Assembly (NCBI GenBank): GCA_011742915.1
Contig: JAAQTN010000021.1
Location: forward strand, 1-64,000
From: Billgrantia desiderata
GTDB taxonomy: Bacteria > Pseudomonadota > Gammaproteobacteria > Pseudomonadales > Halomonadaceae
DNA length: 64,000 bases
Direction: 5' to 3'
Shown piece after piece: positions 12,458 to 59,200 of the stretch (within the stretch, counting starts at the first letter, position 1; every line of letters starts with the position of its first letter). The translations under genes and the position numbers were made by a program. Below the pieces are notes generated by a model. It had not been told where the DNA came from. It ran no database searches and worked only from the letters and a program-made list of their open reading frames with translations.

Positions 12458-12895
12458 ATGCCAGTAGCAGACAAGAAAGCGGAAGCGCCCAAAAAGTTCA
12501 CCCCGTACGAGTCGGCACCGGGTGAAGAGTACATGAACGAGCAGCAGCTTGAGCACTTCCGACAGATCCTGCTGGGCTGGAAACAGGAGCTCATGGAAGA
12601 AGTCGATCGCACCGTGCGCCATCTGCAGGAAGAGGCGAACAACTACGCCGACCCTGCGGACCGGGCCACCCAGGAAGAGGGGTTCAGCCTGGAGCTGCGG
12701 ACCCGCGATCGCGAGCGCAAGCTGCTCAAGAAGATCAACGAGACCCTCGAGAAGATCGACGAGGAGGACTACGGCTACTGCGAGGCGTGCGGCGTCGAGA
12801 TCGGCATTCGCCGACTGGAGGCTCGCCCCACCGCTACGCTGTGCGTCGACTGCAAGACCCTGGCCGAACTCAAGGAAAAGCAGCTCGGCGGCTGA
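12458..12895 (+). CDS. dksA: RNA polymerase-binding transcription factor DksA
   Basis: Binds the RNA polymerase secondary channel and, with ppGpp, mediates the stringent response. The 145 residues have a long coiled-coil with acidic tip residues in DPADRA (D65 and D68) and a four-cysteine zinc finger (C108, C111, C129, C132). All are conserved, so it should be a canonical, active DksA. GAGG lies just before the ATG. A 10-bp hairpin follows the gene before gluQ, the usual downstream partner. Confidence 0.96.
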   Translation: MPVADKKAEAPKKFTPYESAPGEEYMNEQQLEHFRQILLGWKQELMEEVDRTVRHLQEEANNYADPADRATQEEGFSLELRTRDRERKLLKKINETLEKIDEEDYGYCEACGVEIGIRRLEARPTATLCVDCKTLAELKEKQLGG

Positions 12896-13870: not shown

Positions 13871-14047
13871 ATGTACGTCTACCGCATCATGCTGTTCCTG
13901 GTTCTGGCCGGCTATCTGCTGTCGCCGCTGCTGATGAGCGGCTGGTCGAGCCCCGGAGTCGCCTGGTACCGCCCCTTCGTCATCTGGGGCGTACTGATCG
14001 CCCTGACGCTGTGGCTGGAGCAGAAGAGGAAGCTCGATGAACGCTAG
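13871..14047 (+). CDS. cbrX: CbrX-like small membrane protein
   Basis: A 58-residue protein beginning MYVYRIMLFLVLAGYLLSP and ending [12 protein letters not shown]. It has two hydrophobic segments (about 5-22 and 33-50), so an inner-membrane hairpin is likely. GAGGAG lies at a good distance from the ATG. Its last 11 bases overlap the start of cbrA in another frame, so translation of cbrA is probably coupled to it. A small gene in this position, cbrX, is known from Pseudomonas; the assignment here rests on position, size and hydrophobicity. Its role is probably to set CbrA levels. Confidence 0.75.
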   Translation: MYVYRIMLFLVLAGYLLSPLLMSGWSSPGVAWYRPFVIWGVLIALTLWLEQKRKLDER

Positions 14048-16994
14048 CCTGGTCAGCGTGTTCGCCCTCGGTACCGGCTTCCTGCTGCTGATGTTTCTCT
14101 GCGCCCTGGCGGTGGAGCGGGGCTGGCTGAGCCGCCGCGTGACCCGTCATCCGGCCGTCTACACCCTGGCGCTGGGCGTCTATGCCAGCGCCTGGGCGAT
14201 CTACGGCAGCCTGGAGCTGGCCTCGAGCGCCGGCTACGGCTATCTCGCCTATTACCTGGGCGTGGCCGGCGCCTTTCTGCTGGCCCCGGTACTGCTGGTG
14301 CCCATCCAGCGCATGACCCGCACCCACCAGCTCGCCTCGCTGGCCGACCTGTTCGCCTTCCGCTTCCGCTCGCGCTGGGTCGGCACCATGATCACCGTGA
14401 TCAGCCTGCTGGCGGTGATGCCGCTGCTGGCGCTGCAGGTGCAGACCTTGGGCGATGCCATCTTCCTGATGACCGGCACCGCCTCACCGTCGCTGCTCGC
14501 CCTGGCGCTGTGCGCCCTGATCGCACTGTTCGCGATGATCTTCGGCGCCCGCCACGGCAAGGGCCCGGCGCGACACGACACCCTGCTGGCGGTCATCGCC
14601 CTGACCTCGGTGGTCAAGCTCTTCGCCATGCTGGCACTGGGCGCCATCGCCCTGTTCGTCGTCTTCGATGGCCCCGCCGACCTGCAGCACTGGCTCGACG
14701 GCCCCGGCCAGCTCTACCAGGCTGGCGTGGTGCAGCCGGATGCCGCCCACTGGCGCACCCTGCTGCTGCTGTTCTTCGCCGCCGCGCTGTTGATGCCGCA
14801 CATCTTTCACATCACCTTCGCCGAGACCCTGTCGCGGCACACCCTGCTGCAGGCGAGTTGGTCGCTGCCGCTGTTCCTGCTGCTGATGGCGATTCCGGTA
14901 CCGCTGATCCTGTGGGCGGGCCAGCGGCTGGGCAGCCACGAACTGGTGGGCGCCGCCTATCTGGCCTTCGGTCTCTCCGACGCCTTCTGGGTCCAGGCAC
15001 TGGCGTTCCTGGCCGGCCTGGCCGCCAGCAGCGGCACCATGGTCATCATCGCCATGGCGCTGTCCGGCATGATCCTCAACCACGTGCTGCTGGTGGCCCA
15101 CCCACCCGAGGCCCAGCCCAATCTCTACCGCTGGCTGCGCTGGCTGCGCCGGGCGCTGATGGCCGCGGTGATTCTCAGCGGCTGGCTGTTCTATCGTACG
15201 GTCGGCGTCAACCACGACCTGACCACCCTGGCGCTGGCCGCCTTCGTCGGCATGGCCCAGTGTCTGCCGGGGCTACTGGCACTGCTCTACTGGCCCGGGG
15301 CCAACCGCAAGGGCATGGTCTCGGGGCTGGTCGTCGGCGTGCTCATCTGGCTCGTCGGCCTGTGGCTGCCGCTGCTCACCGGCCTGCCCACCCTGATCCT
15401 GATCCCACCGGGACTCGAGCTGCTCGACGGCGAACCGGACTGGTACGTGGTCACCCTGGTGTCGCTGGCACTCAACGTGCTCGTCTTCATCATCGTCTCG
15501 CTGGCCACGCGGACCTCCGAGGGCGAGCGCGCCGCTGCCGAAGCCTGTTCGGTGGATGCCGTGATCCGGCCCAAGCGCATGCAGCTGCTGGCCGCCACCG
15601 GCGAGGAGTTCAAGCAGCCGCTGGCCCAGGCGCTGGGCGAGGAGGTCGCCCAGCGTGAGGTGGAGCGCGCCCTGACCGATCTCGGCATGTCGCCGCTGGA
15701 TGGCCGCCCCTATGCCCTGCGCCGGCTGCGCGATCGTATCCAGGCCAACCTCTCCGGCCTGATGGGGCCCTCGGTGGCCCAGGACATCGTCGACCGCTAC
15801 CTGCCCTATCGCCGCAGCGGCCAGGAGCCCACCGACGACATCCACTTCGTCGAAAGCCGTCTCGAGGCCTACCGTTCGCGGCTCACCGGCCTGGCCCGCG
15901 AGCTCGACGGCCTGCGCCGCTATCATCGGCGCATCCTCACCCGCCTGCCGGTGGGCCTGTGTGCCTTCGGCGTCGATGACGAACTGCTGATGTGGAACGA
16001 CGCCCTGGCCGAGCTCTCCGGCATCGACGGCGGCAGCGTCGTGGGGGCCAGACGCGACGGCCTGCCGGCGCCCTGGTCCGAGCTGTTGGGCCGCGCCCTG
16101 GTCGAGCCCAACGACCACCTCTACAAGCAGCCGGTCGAACTGCGCGGCAACACCCGCTACCTGACCTTCCATCGCGCCGAACTGCAGGCCGACGACGACG
16201 TGCGCGGCGGCACCGTGATCCTGGTCGAGGACCACAGCGAGATGAAGTGGCTCGAGGACGAGCTGGTGCACGCCGCCCGGCTGGCCTCGATCGGTCAGCT
16301 GGCGGCCGGGGTGGCCCATGAGATCGGCAATCCGGTGACCGGCATCTCCTCGCTGGCCCAGAACCTGCGCTACGACACCGACGACCCCGAAGTGCTGGAA
16401 ACCGCCCAGCAGATCCAGCAGCTGACCGACCGCATCTCGCGCATCGTCAGCTCACTGGTGGGCTTCGCCCATGGCGGTCGTCACGTGAAGGACACCACCC
16501 TGGCGTCGGTCTCCATTGCCGCCATCGCCGAAGAGGCGCTGCACTTGATCCGGCTGGCACGCTCGGGCGAGGATGTCCGGTACCGCAATCTCTGTCCTCC
16601 CGAGCTGAAGGTGCTCGGCGACACCCAGCGGCTGCAGCAGGTGATGATCAATCTGCTGAGCAACGCACGGGACGCCAGCGAGCCGGGCGGCAAGGTGGAC
16701 ATCGATGCCGAGCCGGATGGCGACACGGTTAAGGTCACCGTGACCGACGAGGGGCATGGGCTCGACGACCGGGTTCGCGAGCACCTCTTCGAGCCCTTCA
16801 CCACCACCAAGCCGCCGGGCGAAGGCACGGGACTCGGCCTGCCCCTGGTTTACAGCATCGTTGCCGAGCATCATGGCAGGATAGAGATCGAATCGCCGCC
16901 CCCGGGGGCTGAGCGGGGCACCCGCATCTGTCTGTGGCTGCCCACCGAACGAGAGGATGGTGAACATACCGATGAGCCGGATTCTGATCGTTGA
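14037..16994 (+). CDS. cbrA: Transporter-sensor histidine kinase CbrA
   Basis: Sensor of the CbrAB system for carbon/nitrogen balance and amino-acid use. Its 985 residues carry an N-terminal sodium:solute-symporter-like module with about 12-13 membrane segments (1-490) and a linker. A PAS domain follows at about 630-740. The phospho-acceptor His761 lies in [10 protein letters not shown], followed by an ATPase domain (N-box [11 protein letters not shown] near 868, then DEGHGLDD and [10 protein letters not shown]). Size and architecture match Pseudomonas CbrA (about 983). Whether the transporter domain carries histidine, as reported in Pseudomonas, cannot be read here. It overlaps cbrX upstream and cbrB downstream. 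Confidence 0.93.
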
Positions 16995-18363
16995 AGACGA
17001 AGCCATCATCCGCACCGCACTGCGCCGGCTGCTGGAGCGTCACGACTACCAGGTGAGCGAGGCCGGCTGCGTGGACGAGGCGCTCGCGCTGGAGCCGCGC
17101 GGCTTCGACCTGGTGATCAGCGACCTGCGCCTGCCCGGCGAGCCCGGCACCGACCTGATCGAGCACGCCGCGCCGACCCCGGTGCTGATCATGACCAGCT
17201 ATGCCAGCATGCGCTCCGCGGTGGAGGCGCTCAAGCAGGGCGCCGTGGATTACGTGGCCAAGCCCTTCGACCATGACGAGCTGCTGGAGACCGTGGCCCG
17301 GGTGCTCCATCAGCGGTCGACACACAGCACCTCACCGCCTGACATCACCGATGCCGGCGGCGCACGCCAGCCGATGATCGGCGAGTGCGCCGCCATGCAG
17401 GCGGTCTACACCCGCATCCGCAAGACCGCTCCGGCCGACGTCACCGTGCTGATCCAGGGCGAGTCGGGCACCGGCAAGGAACTGGTCGCCCGCGCCATTC
17501 ACCAGCAGAGCCAACGCGCCCACGCCCCGCTCATCTGCGTCAACTGCGCGGCCATCCCCGAAACCCTGATCGAGTCGGAGCTGTTCGGCCACGAGAAGGG
17601 TGCCTTCACCGGCGCCAGCGCCGCCCGCACCGGCCTGGTCGAAGCCGCCGATGGCGGCACGCTGTTTCTCGACGAGATTGGCGAGCTGCCGCTGGATGCC
17701 CAGGCGCGCCTGCTGCGCGTGCTGCAGGAAGGCGAGATCCGTCGCATCGGCTCGGTGGAGACCCGCCATGTCGACGTGCGTCTGATCGCCGCCACGCATC
17801 GCGACCTGCGCGCACTGTCGAAGACCGGCGAGTTCCGCCTCGATCTCTACTACCGGCTCAACGTGATGCAGATCGACCTGCCGCCGCTGCGCGAGCGCGA
17901 GGACGACATCCTGCTGATCGCCGACGTACTGCTGGAGAAGGCCTGCCAGCGCCACCATCGCGACGGCTTGCGCCTGTCGCGCGCGGCGCGGCGCGAGATA
18001 CGCGACTACCCCTGGCCCGGCAACGTGCGGGAGTTGGAGAACGCGCTCGAACGCGGCGTGATCCTCGCCGAGGGCCATCTCATTCACCCCGACGATCTGG
18101 GCCTCAGGCCGAGCCTGGCACCGGCGCCCCGCAGCATCGTCGAATCCCAGCCGGCCACCGCCCAGGTCGAGAGCGAAGTGCTGGACGCCGAAGAGGACCT
18201 TTCGCTGGAGGACTATTTCCAGCACTTCGTGCTCGAGCACCAGGATCACATGAGCGAGACGGAGCTCGCCCAGAAGCTCGGCATCAGCCGCAAGTGCCTG
18301 TGGGAGCGACGTCAGCGCCTGGGCATTCCACGCAAGAAGCAGGCCCGCCGCAGCAGCGCCTGA
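16972..18363 (+). CDS. cbrB: Sigma-54-dependent response regulator CbrB
   Basis: NtrC-family activator of 463 residues. A receiver domain carries Asp51 in VISDLRLPG. The AAA+ domain has Walker A GESGTGKE at 163-170 and the sigma-54 contact GAFTGA at 210-215. A Fis-type helix-turn-helix lies at the C-terminus ([19 protein letters not shown]). The start [10 protein letters not shown] at 16972 is chosen for the conserved receiver N-terminus; an in-frame ATG at 16957 is possible. It overlaps the end of cbrA, so the pair is co-translated. Its likely main target is the RNA gene immediately downstream. Confidence 0.93.
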
Positions 18364-18455: not shown

Positions 18456-18508
18456 GTGTTACCTTCCCACCCAGAACCTGCCCCCTCATGGCGCAACCGA
18501 GGTAACAC
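18456..18508 (+). promoter_or_regulatory. Candidate CbrB upstream activating sites for crcZ
   Basis: GTGTTACC (18456-18463) and GGTAACAC (18501-18508) form a perfect 8-bp inverted pair, centred about 45 bases apart. They lie about 100-150 bases upstream of the predicted sigma-54 start. I recall TGTTAC/GTAACA as the half-sites of CbrB elements in Pseudomonas, although the spacing there is shorter. The assignment is inference. Confidence 0.55.
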
Positions 18509-18580: not shown

Positions 18581-18598
18581 TTGGCATATGCCGTGCAA
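18581..18598 (+). promoter_or_regulatory. Sigma-54 promoter of the CrcZ-like RNA
   Basis: TTGGCATATGCCGTGCAA contains GG at 18583-18584 and GC at 18595-18596, exactly 10 bases apart. It fits the -24/-12 consensus TTGGCAC-N5-TTGCA well. The predicted start of transcription is about 18608. A sigma-54 activator (CbrB) is encoded immediately upstream. Confidence 0.8.
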
Positions 18599-18607
18599 CA
18601 TTCATGG

Positions 18608-19107
18608 CAAGAAAAACAACATCCGGCTGCATCCCGAGCCAACAACAAAAACAAGGCATCGGTAGAGCAGGGCCTGCGCCAACAACAACAATGGCAGGCT
18701 GTGATAGAGACGCGGCGAGGGGCAACAAGAACAAGATGCCCCGGAGAACGCCGCCCTTCGCTTCGACTGCAACAACAAGACACGAGCGAAGCACCGGATC
18801 CATCAGGACGCGACGCGCCAACCCCGGCCTCCAACAAGAACAACGGCCGCAAACGCGCACCTTCGGCAACAATGCCAACAAGCCGAAGGGAGGCATATCT
18901 TTCATGCCGTCGTGGTTGGATTATTGTTTTGAATACGAGGCGGTCGCATAACCAGGAACGTCAACAATCACAACAACACTGTTTGCCTGTGACTCTTGGT
19001 GACTGTGGTGCGTATTCAAGGCGATGCGCCATCACGAAGAAGAAACAGCCGCAAGGACGCAGCATCACCTTAGCTTGTGAGAGGAGGCCCACGGGCCTCC
19101 TCTTTTA
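18608..19107 (+). ncRNA. crcZ: CrcZ-like decoy small RNA (about 500 nt)
   Basis: The 852-base gap between cbrB and pcnB holds no convincing protein gene but is full of A-rich triplet runs. Seven exact AAnAAnAA motifs occur: 18609, 18641, 18681, 18724, 18771, 18833 and 19037; near-matches lie at 18868, 18963 and 18972. Six hairpins hold these runs in their loops or span a loop boundary. In Pseudomonas, CrcZ sits in this exact position, is driven by CbrB and sigma-54, and sequesters Hfq/Crc through such motifs. Here the transcript would run from the sigma-54 start to the terminator at 19106, longer than the roughly 400-nt Pseudomonas RNA. Position, promoter, motif content and structure agree; expression and Hfq binding are inferred. 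Confidence 0.85.
19081..19106 (+). terminator. Intrinsic terminator of the CrcZ-like RNA
   Basis: GAGGAGGCCC pairs with GGGCCTCCTC across a minimal loop and is followed by TTTTAA. It sets the 3' end of the RNA and separates it from the pcnB promoter. Confidence 0.85.
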
Positions 19108-19215: not shown

Positions 19216-20613
19216 ATGTTCAAAGGATTTACCCGCTTTCTGCAGAGCCCTGGCGCGCATTTCAGGACACTTTTCGGCCCCCAGGATGCCTCAGGGGGGC
19301 ACGCAGGCCCTCGAATCATTCCCCGTGATCAGCACCCCGTGTCGCGTCAGCACTTCAGCGAACCGGCACTCAAGGTGCTCTATCGCCTGCACAATGCCGG
19401 GTTCGAGGCCTATCTGGTCGGCGGCTGCATTCGCGATTCGCTGCTGGGCAAGATGCCCAAGGACTTCGATGTCGCCACCGATGCGACGCCCGAGCAGGTC
19501 CGCGAGCTGTTTCGCAACTCGCGCATCATCGGCCGCCGCTTTCGCATCGTGCACGTGCGCTTCGGCCGCGAGGTGATCGAGGTCACCACCTTCCGCGGCA
19601 CCCACGGCGACGACCACGACGATCATATCGCCCAGCAATCGGAGCACGGCCTGCTGCTGCGCGACAACGTGTGGGGCAGCGTCCAGGAAGACGCCATCCG
19701 ACGCGACTTCACCGTCAACGCTCTTTATTACAGCATCGCCGACTTCTCGATTCACGACTTTGCCGACGGCATGCGCGACATAGAATCGCGCACCCTGCGC
19801 CTGATCGGCGACCCGGCCGTGCGCTACCGCGAAGACCCGGTACGCATGCTGCGCGCGGTGCGCTTCGCCGCCAAGCTGGACTTCCATATCGCCGCCGATT
19901 CGGAAGCGCCGATCGGCGAGCTGGCACCGCTGCTGCTGCAGATTCCGCCGGCACGGCTGTTCGATGAAGTCCTCAAGCTGTTCATGGCCGGCTATGGCGT
20001 GGTGACCTTCCGCCTGCTGCGTCATTACGGCCTGTTCGCCATGCTCTTTCCCGAAACCGATGAGGCGATGGCACAGCAACCCTGGGCCGAGCCGCTCATC
20101 GAGCACGCCCTGGCCAGCACCGACAAGCGCATCCACGAGGAGCGCCCGGTCACGCCGGCGTTCCTCTTCGCCGCCCTGCTGTGGGGGCCCGTACAGCGCC
20201 GCCAGGCCGCGCTGCAAGCCGACGGCATGCCACCCGTTCCGGCACTGCAGCTGGCCTCGCAGCAGGTGCTGTCGCGCCAGCTGCAGCATATCTCCATTCC
20301 CAAGCGTTTCAGCATGCCGATGCGCGACATCTGGGACCTGCAGCAACGCCTGCCTCAGCGGCGCGGCAAGCGCGCTCTGCAGACCCGCGAGCATCCACGC
20401 TTCCGCGCCGCCTACGACTTCCTGCTGCTGCGCGAGGCCGCCGGCGAGATCGAGGCAGGACTCGGCGAATGGTGGACCGCCTACCAGGAAGGCGACGAAC
20501 ATGAGCAGCGGCGTCTGCTCGAGAAGGCCGGCGCCGATGCCGCCCCCGGCGGCGACTCGCGTCGCCGGCGCCCACGCAAACGTCGTCGGCGCAGCTCCTC
20601 CGGCCCCTCATGA
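19216..20613 (+). CDS. pcnB: Poly(A) polymerase I
   Basis: Adds 3' poly(A) tails that promote RNA decay; a class II nucleotidyltransferase related to CCA-adding enzymes. The 465 residues contain YLVGGCIRDSLLG, the catalytic DFDVATDATPEQV, RRFRIVHVRFG and the RNA-binding DAIRRDFTVNAL region. A very basic, Arg/Lys-rich C-terminus (RRRRPRKRRRRSS) is typical of PcnB. The ATG at 19216 is preferred over a GTG at 19159 because the latter lies inside the promoter. The stop overlaps folK by 4 bases. Confidence 0.92.
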   Translation: MFKGFTRFLQSPGAHFRTLFGPQDASGGHAGPRIIPRDQHPVSRQHFSEPALKVLYRLHNAGFEAYLVGGCIRDSLLGKMPKDFDVATDATPEQVRELFRNSRIIGRRFRIVHVRFGREVIEVTTFRGTHGDDHDDHIAQQSEHGLLLRDNVWGSVQEDAIRRDFTVNALYYSIADFSIHDFADGMRDIESRTLRLIGDPAVRYREDPVRMLRAVRFAAKLDFHIAADSEAPIGELAPLLLQIPPARLFDEVLKLFMAGYGVVTFRLLRHYGLFAMLFPETDEAMAQQPWAEPLIEHALASTDKRIHEERPVTPAFLFAALLWGPVQRRQAALQADGMPPVPALQLASQQVLSRQLQHISIPKRFSMPMRDIWDLQQRLPQRRGKRALQTREHPRFRAAYDFLLLREAAGEIEAGLGEWWTAYQEGDEHEQRRLLEKAGADAAPGGDSRRRRPRKRRRRSSSGPS

Positions 20614-26993: not shown

Positions 26994-27263
26994 TTAACGA
27001 CGCAGGCCGAGGCGCTGGATCAATGCCTGATAGCGCGCCAGGTCCTTGCGCTTCAGGTAGTCCAGCAGCTTGCGGCGCTGGTTGACCATGCGGATCAGGC
27101 CACGACGGGAGTGGTGATCCTGCTTGTTGGTCTTGAAGTGGTCCTGCAGGCCGTCGATGTTGGCGCTCAGCAGGGCCACCTGAACCTCGGGGGAACCGGT
27201 GTCGTTGTCGCCACGGCCGAATTCCTTGACGATCTCGGCCTTCTGTTCAGCGGTAAGTGCCAT
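26994..27263 (-). CDS. rpsO: 30S ribosomal protein S15
   Basis: Primary 16S rRNA-binding protein of the small subunit platform. The 89-residue product has the full S15 fold: [35 protein letters not shown] and [23 protein letters not shown] precedes the ATG. It lies between truB and pnp, as in E. coli. S15 often binds its own leader mRNA; the 103-base leader is the place to look. Confidence 0.97.
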
Positions 27264-27366
27264 CTGTATCTCCAGTAAGCAATATGCCTGAAACGTGAAT
27301 GTGTGAGACCACGCATATTTGCAGTCTCGGGCGTCTCTCCCTCCAGGGCAGCGCTTGCGCTCCCCC

Positions 27367-33496: not shown

Positions 33497-33573
<77 letters not shown>

Positions 33574-33710: not shown

Positions 33711-33797
33711 TGGTGCCGAAGGCGGGACTTGAACCCGCACGACCGTAAGGTCACTACCCCCTCAAGATAGCGTGTCTACCAATTCCACCACTTCGGC
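33711..33797 (-). tRNA. tRNA-Leu (GAG)
   Basis: An 87-nt class II tRNA with encoded CCA, anticodon GAG (in CTTGAGG), and a long variable arm (TGACCTTACGGTCG). It begins GCCGAAGTGGTGGAATTGG. Located between secG and tRNA-fMet, the same place as E. coli leuU. Confidence 0.95.
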
Positions 33798-58820: not shown

Positions 58821-59200
58821 GGGGGCGACATGGCTTCGACGCCGATGACAACCTCCTAGGTGCATGCCGAGAGCGTGATGTATCTCGTAAATCCAACATC
58901 ACGACTAAATAGTCGCAAACGACGACAACTACGCTCAGGGCGCGCTGGCAGCTTAATAGCTGTTAGCTTCTAGTCCGGCCCCAAAGCGATGTGCCCATTC
59001 ATCGCGGAGGGGATATGAGCCAAGACTGATGGGATCGCGGTTGGTGGTGTCCTCTCGCCAATCGCTAAACTTTAGAGGAATCGCGTAGCTGGATCCTGCC
59101 CGTTGGAGCCAGATGCGTTAAACCAAAAAACGGACCTAAGCATGTAGAGCCGAAGAGCGAGTGTCGGCGGACGCGGGTTCGATCCCCGCCGCCTCCACCA
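58821..59200 (+). ncRNA. ssrA: Transfer-messenger RNA
   Basis: About 380 nt. The 5' end GGGGGCG pairs with 3' CGCCTCC-ACCA to form the acceptor stem; the T-arm is GCGGGTTCGATCCCCGC. The tag reading frame starts at GCA (58915) and ends with TAA (58954-58956), encoding ANDDNYAQGALAA. This is three residues longer than the E. coli ANDENYALAA but keeps the degradation signal. Partner smpB is just upstream. Confidence 0.95.

Follow-up and report, generated by a model that had tools for sequence, protein, structure and literature searches.

Does the gap between the genes cbrB and pcnB of Billgrantia desiderata encode an Hfq/Crc decoy RNA of the CrcZ type? A 2022 review, in the portion consulted, describes the cbrA-cbrB-crcZ organisation from Pseudomonas and Azotobacter only and calls the system "unique to Pseudomonadaceae" (PMC8871633), in agreement with the original prediction that such RNAs are known only from pseudomonads and Azotobacter. 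The excerpt of a second paper likewise treats the CbrAB-CrcZ chain as exclusive to pseudomonads (PMC6296734). Excerpts of the open-licence literature joining Halomonas with CrcZ or CbrB gave no report of CrcZ or CbrAB in Halomonadaceae; cbrAB transcripts are noted in a marine community in the part seen of another study (PMC5073097). We analysed a window of 64,000 nucleotides, and its sequence makes it highly probable that the cbrB-pcnB gap encodes a CrcZ-type Hfq/Crc decoy RNA of about 500 nt.

Locus and comparison set

The candidate RNA is located between the cbrB stop at 18363 and pcnB at 19216, and all three are on the same strand. The names cbrA, cbrB and pcnB were assigned by synteny and presumably hold; we take two further neighbours to be dksA and gluQ. 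The locus contains the following features.

12458..12895, + strand: dksA, syntenic neighbour (open reading frame; its leader is among the controls of the orthologue-leader test)
14037..16994, + strand: cbrA, sensor kinase gene (open reading frame with relatives in named genomes)
16957..18363, + strand: cbrB, sigma-54 response regulator gene (open reading frame with relatives in other genomes)
18608..19107, + strand: putative CrcZ-type decoy RNA, about 500 nt (promoter, CA motifs, fold, terminator and conservation)
19216..20613, + strand: pcnB (open reading frame with relatives in other genomes)

Of the CbrA relatives confirmed in named genomes, 130 in all, the best 80 were kept as comparison loci. 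Three loci without pcnB (L011, L063 and L077) were dropped, leaving 77 relatives, or 78 sequences with the window. Among the best 80, the nearest CbrA relatives, at 99%, are from Billgrantia ethanolica and B. aerodenitrificans, and the remaining ones belong to genomes titled Halomonas, Billgrantia, Vreelandella and close genera. The NCBI taxonomy assigns Billgrantia, Vreelandella and Halovibrio to Halomonadaceae, placed in Oceanospirillales; "order" in all counts given here is that of the GTDB-based genome set and not the NCBI order. The counts of conservation within the family come from related genomes, which are not independent samples. Plasmid records provided short partial matches only. 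Elsewhere, the window contains Rfam matches to an S15 leader and a tmRNA (27207-27332, - strand, and 58821-59200, + strand) and two tRNAs (33500-33573 and 33714-33797).

Promoter and CbrB subsites

The gap upstream of the candidate RNA contains three control elements.

18457..18462, + strand: CbrB subsite of F type, TGTTAC (exact match)
18502..18507, + strand: CbrB subsite of R type, GTAACA (exact match)
18581..18598, + strand: sigma-54 -24/-12 promoter element TTGGCATATGCCGTGCAA (GG-N10-GC spacing; +1 at 18608)

The sigma-54 promoter that had been predicted is thus present as a -24/-12 element with the correct GG-N10-GC spacing, and the strict sigma-54 pattern occurs in the cbrB-pcnB gaps of 76 of the 77 relatives. 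TGTTAC (F) and GTAACA (R) are the CbrB subsites of P. putida according to the excerpt of PMC6296734. P. putida has three subsites, whereas the window has two exact ones, 45 bp apart. Exact F and R subsites are spaced by 44-45 bp in all 78 gaps (45 bp in 77 and 44 bp in one). When 120 hexamers, TGTTAC and its permutations, were compared for this spacing, the best other one reached 3 of the 78 gaps.

CA motifs, fold and terminator

The CA motif AANAANAA has 13 overlapping starts in the window RNA, at positions 18609, 18612, 18641, 18644, 18647, 18681, 18684, 18724, 18727, 18771, 18833, 18836 and 19037. They form seven clusters on the sense strand of the gap, against one on the opposite strand, and the "at least seven" motifs of the original prediction are correct when counted as clusters. 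Dinucleotide shuffles of the gap gave an expectation of 0.40 clusters, and none of 300 reached seven. The clusters and the other elements of the RNA are as follows.

18609..18619, + strand: CA cluster 1, at the RNA 5' end (+2) (motif search)
18641..18654, + strand: CA cluster 2, predicted hairpin loop (single-sequence window fold)
18681..18691, + strand: CA cluster 3, predicted hairpin loop (single-sequence window fold)
18724..18734, + strand: CA cluster 4, predicted hairpin loop (single-sequence window fold)
18771..18778, + strand: CA cluster 5, within a covarying stem (fold and covariation)
18804..18816, + strand: conserved linker CAGGACGCGACGC between CA hairpins (22-sequence alignment)
18833..18843, + strand: CA cluster 6, within a covarying stem (fold and covariation)
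19037..19044, + strand: CA cluster 7 (motif search and window fold)
19080..19107, + strand: intrinsic terminator (stem 19080-19089/19094-19103, then a T run)

The relatives have 5-11 sense CA clusters against 0-3 antisense ones in all 77 testable gaps. Measured from scored sigma-54 sites, the first CA motif is at RNA position +2 or +3 in 77 of the 78 sequences, the window included, and at -1 in one. A comparison of 15 A6N2 patterns over the 78 gaps gave 1038 sense occurrences of AANAANAA, against 239 of the runner-up and 87 of AANAANAA on the antisense strand. Therefore, it is the AAN period that is kept, and not A-richness alone.

In the window fold, the CA motifs are unpaired at 0.74-1.00. 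Adenines in CA motifs are unpaired at 0.91, compared with 0.60 for other adenines, and the value is higher in all 78 RNAs. Compensatory changes occur in 24 of the 68 consensus pairs of a 22-sequence alignment of family members, and the covarying stems include those enclosing CA clusters 5 and 6 as well as an AAC-rich loop near 18866. Consensus folding of the 22 sequences showed no stems around CA clusters 2-4, the loops of which belong to the single-sequence fold only.

The terminator expected about 500 nt downstream of the promoter was found as a GC-rich stem followed by a T run that ends at 19107. With +1 at 18608, the proposed limits of the RNA, 18608-19107, are correct at both ends. A terminator was recognised ahead of pcnB in 68 of the 77 relatives, in which the RNA is 446-570 nt long (median 499.5).

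Near-invariant 3' domain

The 3' part of the RNA is conserved more strongly within the family than the rest of the molecule.

18905..19066, + strand: near-invariant 3' domain, a long imperfect duplex and a small hairpin (alignment and profile searches)
19046..19062, + strand: small hairpin with ANGGA (19053-19057), CsrA/RsmA-like (pattern match, a lead only)

Both strands of the duplex (approximately 18910-18944 and 19002-19044) are nearly invariant in 22 diverse family members, which exceeds what pairing by itself would need. Of 61 family genomes, 58 have a single match to the domain; a second copy carrying it was not detected in these 61, in a search with strict filters that can lose weak matches. 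It was not clearly found in 46 loci of other families or in those of the family with the strongest Rfam CrcZ matches (f21), the best match being in L138 of family f38 (E=0.0038).

The ANGGA hairpin occurs in 73 of the 78 sequences by a pattern that itself requires GGA, and the N of the motif among the 73 is T in 26, G in 19, A in 14, C in 12 and absent in 2. A looser hairpin finder placed GGA within a loop in 26 of 78. The hairpin resembles what we take to be the CsrA/RsmA consensus and provides a lead to a putative site of this kind. The genome contains csrA. According to the excerpted review, RsmA binds CrcZ in its 3' region (PMC8871633).

Partner proteins

The search for hfq and crc that had been suggested for this genome found both genes. 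The product of hfq has its best solved match in Hfq 1u1s, which we take to be that of P. aeruginosa; residue 25 is F in this genome and Y in 1u1s, as aligned. The genome encodes four Exo_endo_phos proteins, one of which is a Crc candidate by its solved-structure matches. The best of these is 2myi, titled exodeoxyribonuclease III, and the next are 4jg3 and 4f1r, both titled catabolite repression control protein. The candidate is 46% identical overall, and 11 of the 19 Crc residues named in the excerpt of PMC6422490 are identical and 8 differ. Residues R140, E142 and E193, mutation of which impaired P. aeruginosa Crc according to that excerpt, are all retained. Every one of the 18 own-family genomes in the order sample (own genome included) has a Crc of at least 73% identity. 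Crc-like genes at E<=1e-50 were found in 289 of the 390 order genomes, and some of them are possibly catalytic paralogues.

Candidate target mRNAs

The leader survey covered 1.52 Mb of this genome (the window and 33 stretches, then 40 more), in which a home-made gene finder delimited 1310 genes. At positions -40..-21, AANAANAA occurs in 10 leaders of the first gene set, compared with 0-4 for control patterns and 2 antisense, and in 9 leaders of the second set, compared with 2-8 and 5. Together these make 19 leaders, whereas the controls average 6.36 and reach 12 at most (Poisson p=3.8e-5), for a bin that was chosen on the first gene set. Seven of 9 position bins of the second set, distant ones among them, have more AANAANAA than any control pattern; position specificity therefore comes from the first set only.

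Uptake transporters make up 13 of 35 genes with a CA motif near the start, compared with 8 of 45 random genes, a marginal difference (p=0.045) for classes assigned from Pfam by the analyst, with one ABC-F ATPase left uncounted. Among the 35 genes are those for TRAP-type receptors, BCCT, purine permeases, urate oxidase (puuD), phaC, and a TPP enzyme that we read as glyoxylate carboligase and presume to be gcl. The CA motif may sit in the end of the upstream gene for phaC and for a cysN-like gene. Orthologue leaders keep the CA motif in 8 of 12 cases for gcl, at -31 to -38, and in 4 of 17 for puuD (own genome included in both), compared with 3 of 625 leaders from eight genes of the neighbourhood taken as controls. 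A glpK-like gene was rejected as a conserved target, since the motif is in 1 of 24 leaders, that of the own genome, and the gene is not the usual glpK. The leader sequences provide modest evidence for Hfq/Crc targets. As a separate observation, a phaC gene (L168:8429-10264) carries AAGAAGAA 30 nt upstream of its start. Crc is linked to phaC1 in P. putida in the excerpt of PMC9049629.

Rfam model and spread beyond the family

The Rfam covariance search that had been proposed as a check missed the RNA: the window has no match to the CrcZ model (RF01675, gathering score 95 bits). Therefore, we call it a CrcZ-type RNA and not a member of RF01675. When the gap was scanned permissively, seven matches below threshold to other Rfam families appeared and were taken as chance; among them are Hrs13 on the antisense strand, the best one (23.8 bits with 52 needed, E=0.0018), and Xoo2, which covers the terminator (23.2 bits with 45 needed). 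A single own-family genome of the order sample (G176) reaches E<=1e-3 for CrcZ (8.4e-4, 22.3 bits). Over the whole order sample, the model matches at E<=1e-3 in 71 of 390 genomes and above its cut-off in 19.

The only CrcZ match in the rest of the genome has E=2.83 and is at the start of contig C24 (L169). The CA-rich cluster there was considered as a crcY; it has no sigma-54 or CbrB sites and is located in an AT-rich island, and therefore it is not a crcY. The island (L169 1-1722) is at the contig end, beside what the analyst reads as an integrase-like ORF.

Relatives of cbrB (E<=1e-150) were found in 258 and of pcnB (E<=1e-80) in 378 of the 390 order genomes. Sixty loci were hand-picked to span families, some of them for their Rfam matches, and 51 of these 60 have CA clusters at p<=0.05 against shuffles. 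A sigma-54 element with a CA motif starting at +1..+9 is present in 47 of the 60. Outside the own family and f21, which we infer to be Pseudomonadaceae from its strong Rfam CrcZ matches, this promoter-to-CA spacing occurs in 33 of 46 loci and in 18 of 22 further families; 50 of 66 sigma-54 elements have it, with a chance per site of 0.086. The four families lacking it are f7, f29, f43 and f27, and f16, f6 and f38 have it in only part of their loci. The anticipated Halomonas-like copy is thus supported, but the design is not confined to Halomonas: it recurs in many families of the GTDB order.

Some of these loci have unusual arrangements. The cbrB-pcnB gaps of L137, L138 and L139 (f38) and L125-L127 (f47) each hold at least two good sigma-54 elements, with CbrB half-sites close to them and separate CA clusters, as if the RNA gene had been duplicated in tandem. 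In L142 (G206) and L143 (G007) of family f8, the CA-rich RNA stays beside pcnB, yet the best cbrB match is some 56 kb distant in G206 and on a different contig in G007.

Alternative explanations

The RNA might be an Hfq sponge or reservoir that acts without Crc or catabolite repression, by general titration of Hfq. In Pseudomonas, CA motifs are Hfq distal-face sites with or without Crc, and the 8 differing residues among the 19 named in Crc would also suit this explanation. However, the CbrB subsites at the cbrAB locus, the conservation of Crc in all 18 own-family genomes sampled and the CA motifs in leaders of catabolic genes argue against it, and we consider it unlikely. Less probable still is that the main function resides in the 3' domain, through protein binding or base-pairing, for example with CsrA/RsmA, and that the CA motifs are secondary. 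The arrangement of promoter and CA motifs is retained throughout the order, whereas the domain is undetected outside the family, which disfavours this reading despite the stronger conservation of the domain, its single copy in 58 of 61 genomes, its frequent ANGGA hairpin and the presence of csrA.

It is scarcely credible that the stretch encodes an Asn/Gln-rich peptide or belongs to pcnB as its 5' leader. Open frames of 175 and 115 aa do span the stretch, and a 15-codon ORF in the 3' domain is preceded by GGGAGG. However, the spacing between +1 and the 3' anchor, taken modulo 3, splits 19/25/34 over the 78 sequences, and the longest sense ORF ranges from 28 to 142 aa. The 15-codon ORF was rejected, as its start codon is not conserved and a deletion shifts the frame in L033. 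The terminator recognised ahead of pcnB in most relatives speaks against a pcnB leader.

Proposed mechanism and significance

The CrcZ-type decoy reading is supported jointly by the promoter, CbrB subsites, CA motifs, loops, terminator, synteny, hfq, crc and candidate targets, and a mechanism can be proposed. When the preferred carbon source is scarce, CbrA/CbrB and sigma-54 RNA polymerase would transcribe the approximately 500-nt RNA from 18608. Its seven clusters of AAN repeats, one 5'-terminal and most others predicted to be open in loops, would bind the distal face of Hfq, with Crc. The decoy may thereby draw Hfq/Crc off mRNAs for uptake and catabolic genes, so that catabolite repression would be lifted and less preferred carbon sources could be used. 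Transcription, CbrB control, Hfq/Crc binding and derepression are all proposed here from sequence.

We speculate further, with considerable doubt, that the CbrAB-CrcZ-Hfq/Crc system is ancestral to all Pseudomonadales (GTDB) and that the Halomonadaceae RNA is a two-headed decoy of Hfq/Crc and CsrA/RsmA. If so, AAN loops and a conserved ANGGA hairpin of the family-specific 3' domain would wire carbon control to the Csr/Rsm system in one RNA. With its parts occurring together across Halomonadaceae, and the promoter-RNA design in many other families, the CbrAB-CrcZ-Hfq/Crc chain could plausibly be the default switch of carbon choice in a large order, to which Halomonas production hosts also belong. 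Comparison of the order-wide loci offers a broad basis for working out which features of CrcZ are important, and the Rfam CrcZ model is too narrow to detect RNAs of the Halomonadaceae type.

Comparison with known systems

The Halomonadaceae RNA shares with CrcZ of Pseudomonas its site between cbrB and pcnB, a sigma-54 promoter with CbrB subsites, several CA motifs and a terminator. By the sequence tests it probably works like CrcZ from the same locus, yet it fails the existing Rfam model. It differs in its own 3' domain, in falling below Rfam detection, and in its length of about 500 nt against the 398 positions of the Rfam CrcZ model (RF01675), in accordance with the prediction of a longer than usual RNA. 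The first CA motif is near the 5' end in both, at +4/+5 in 7 loci of f21, the family with the strongest Rfam matches, and at +2/+3 here. CrcY and CrcX of Pseudomonas and Azotobacter are likewise CbrB-controlled Hfq/Crc decoys in the excerpted review (PMC8871633), to which the window RNA is likened by sequence; in contrast to these, no second copy sharing the 3' domain was detected, under the strict filters, in the 61 Halomonadaceae genomes. The RNA also resembles the CsrA/RsmA sponges of RsmZ/RsmY type in its decoy logic and in one ANGGA hairpin, but this hairpin is the single one noted in the window RNA, the body of which carries CA motifs.
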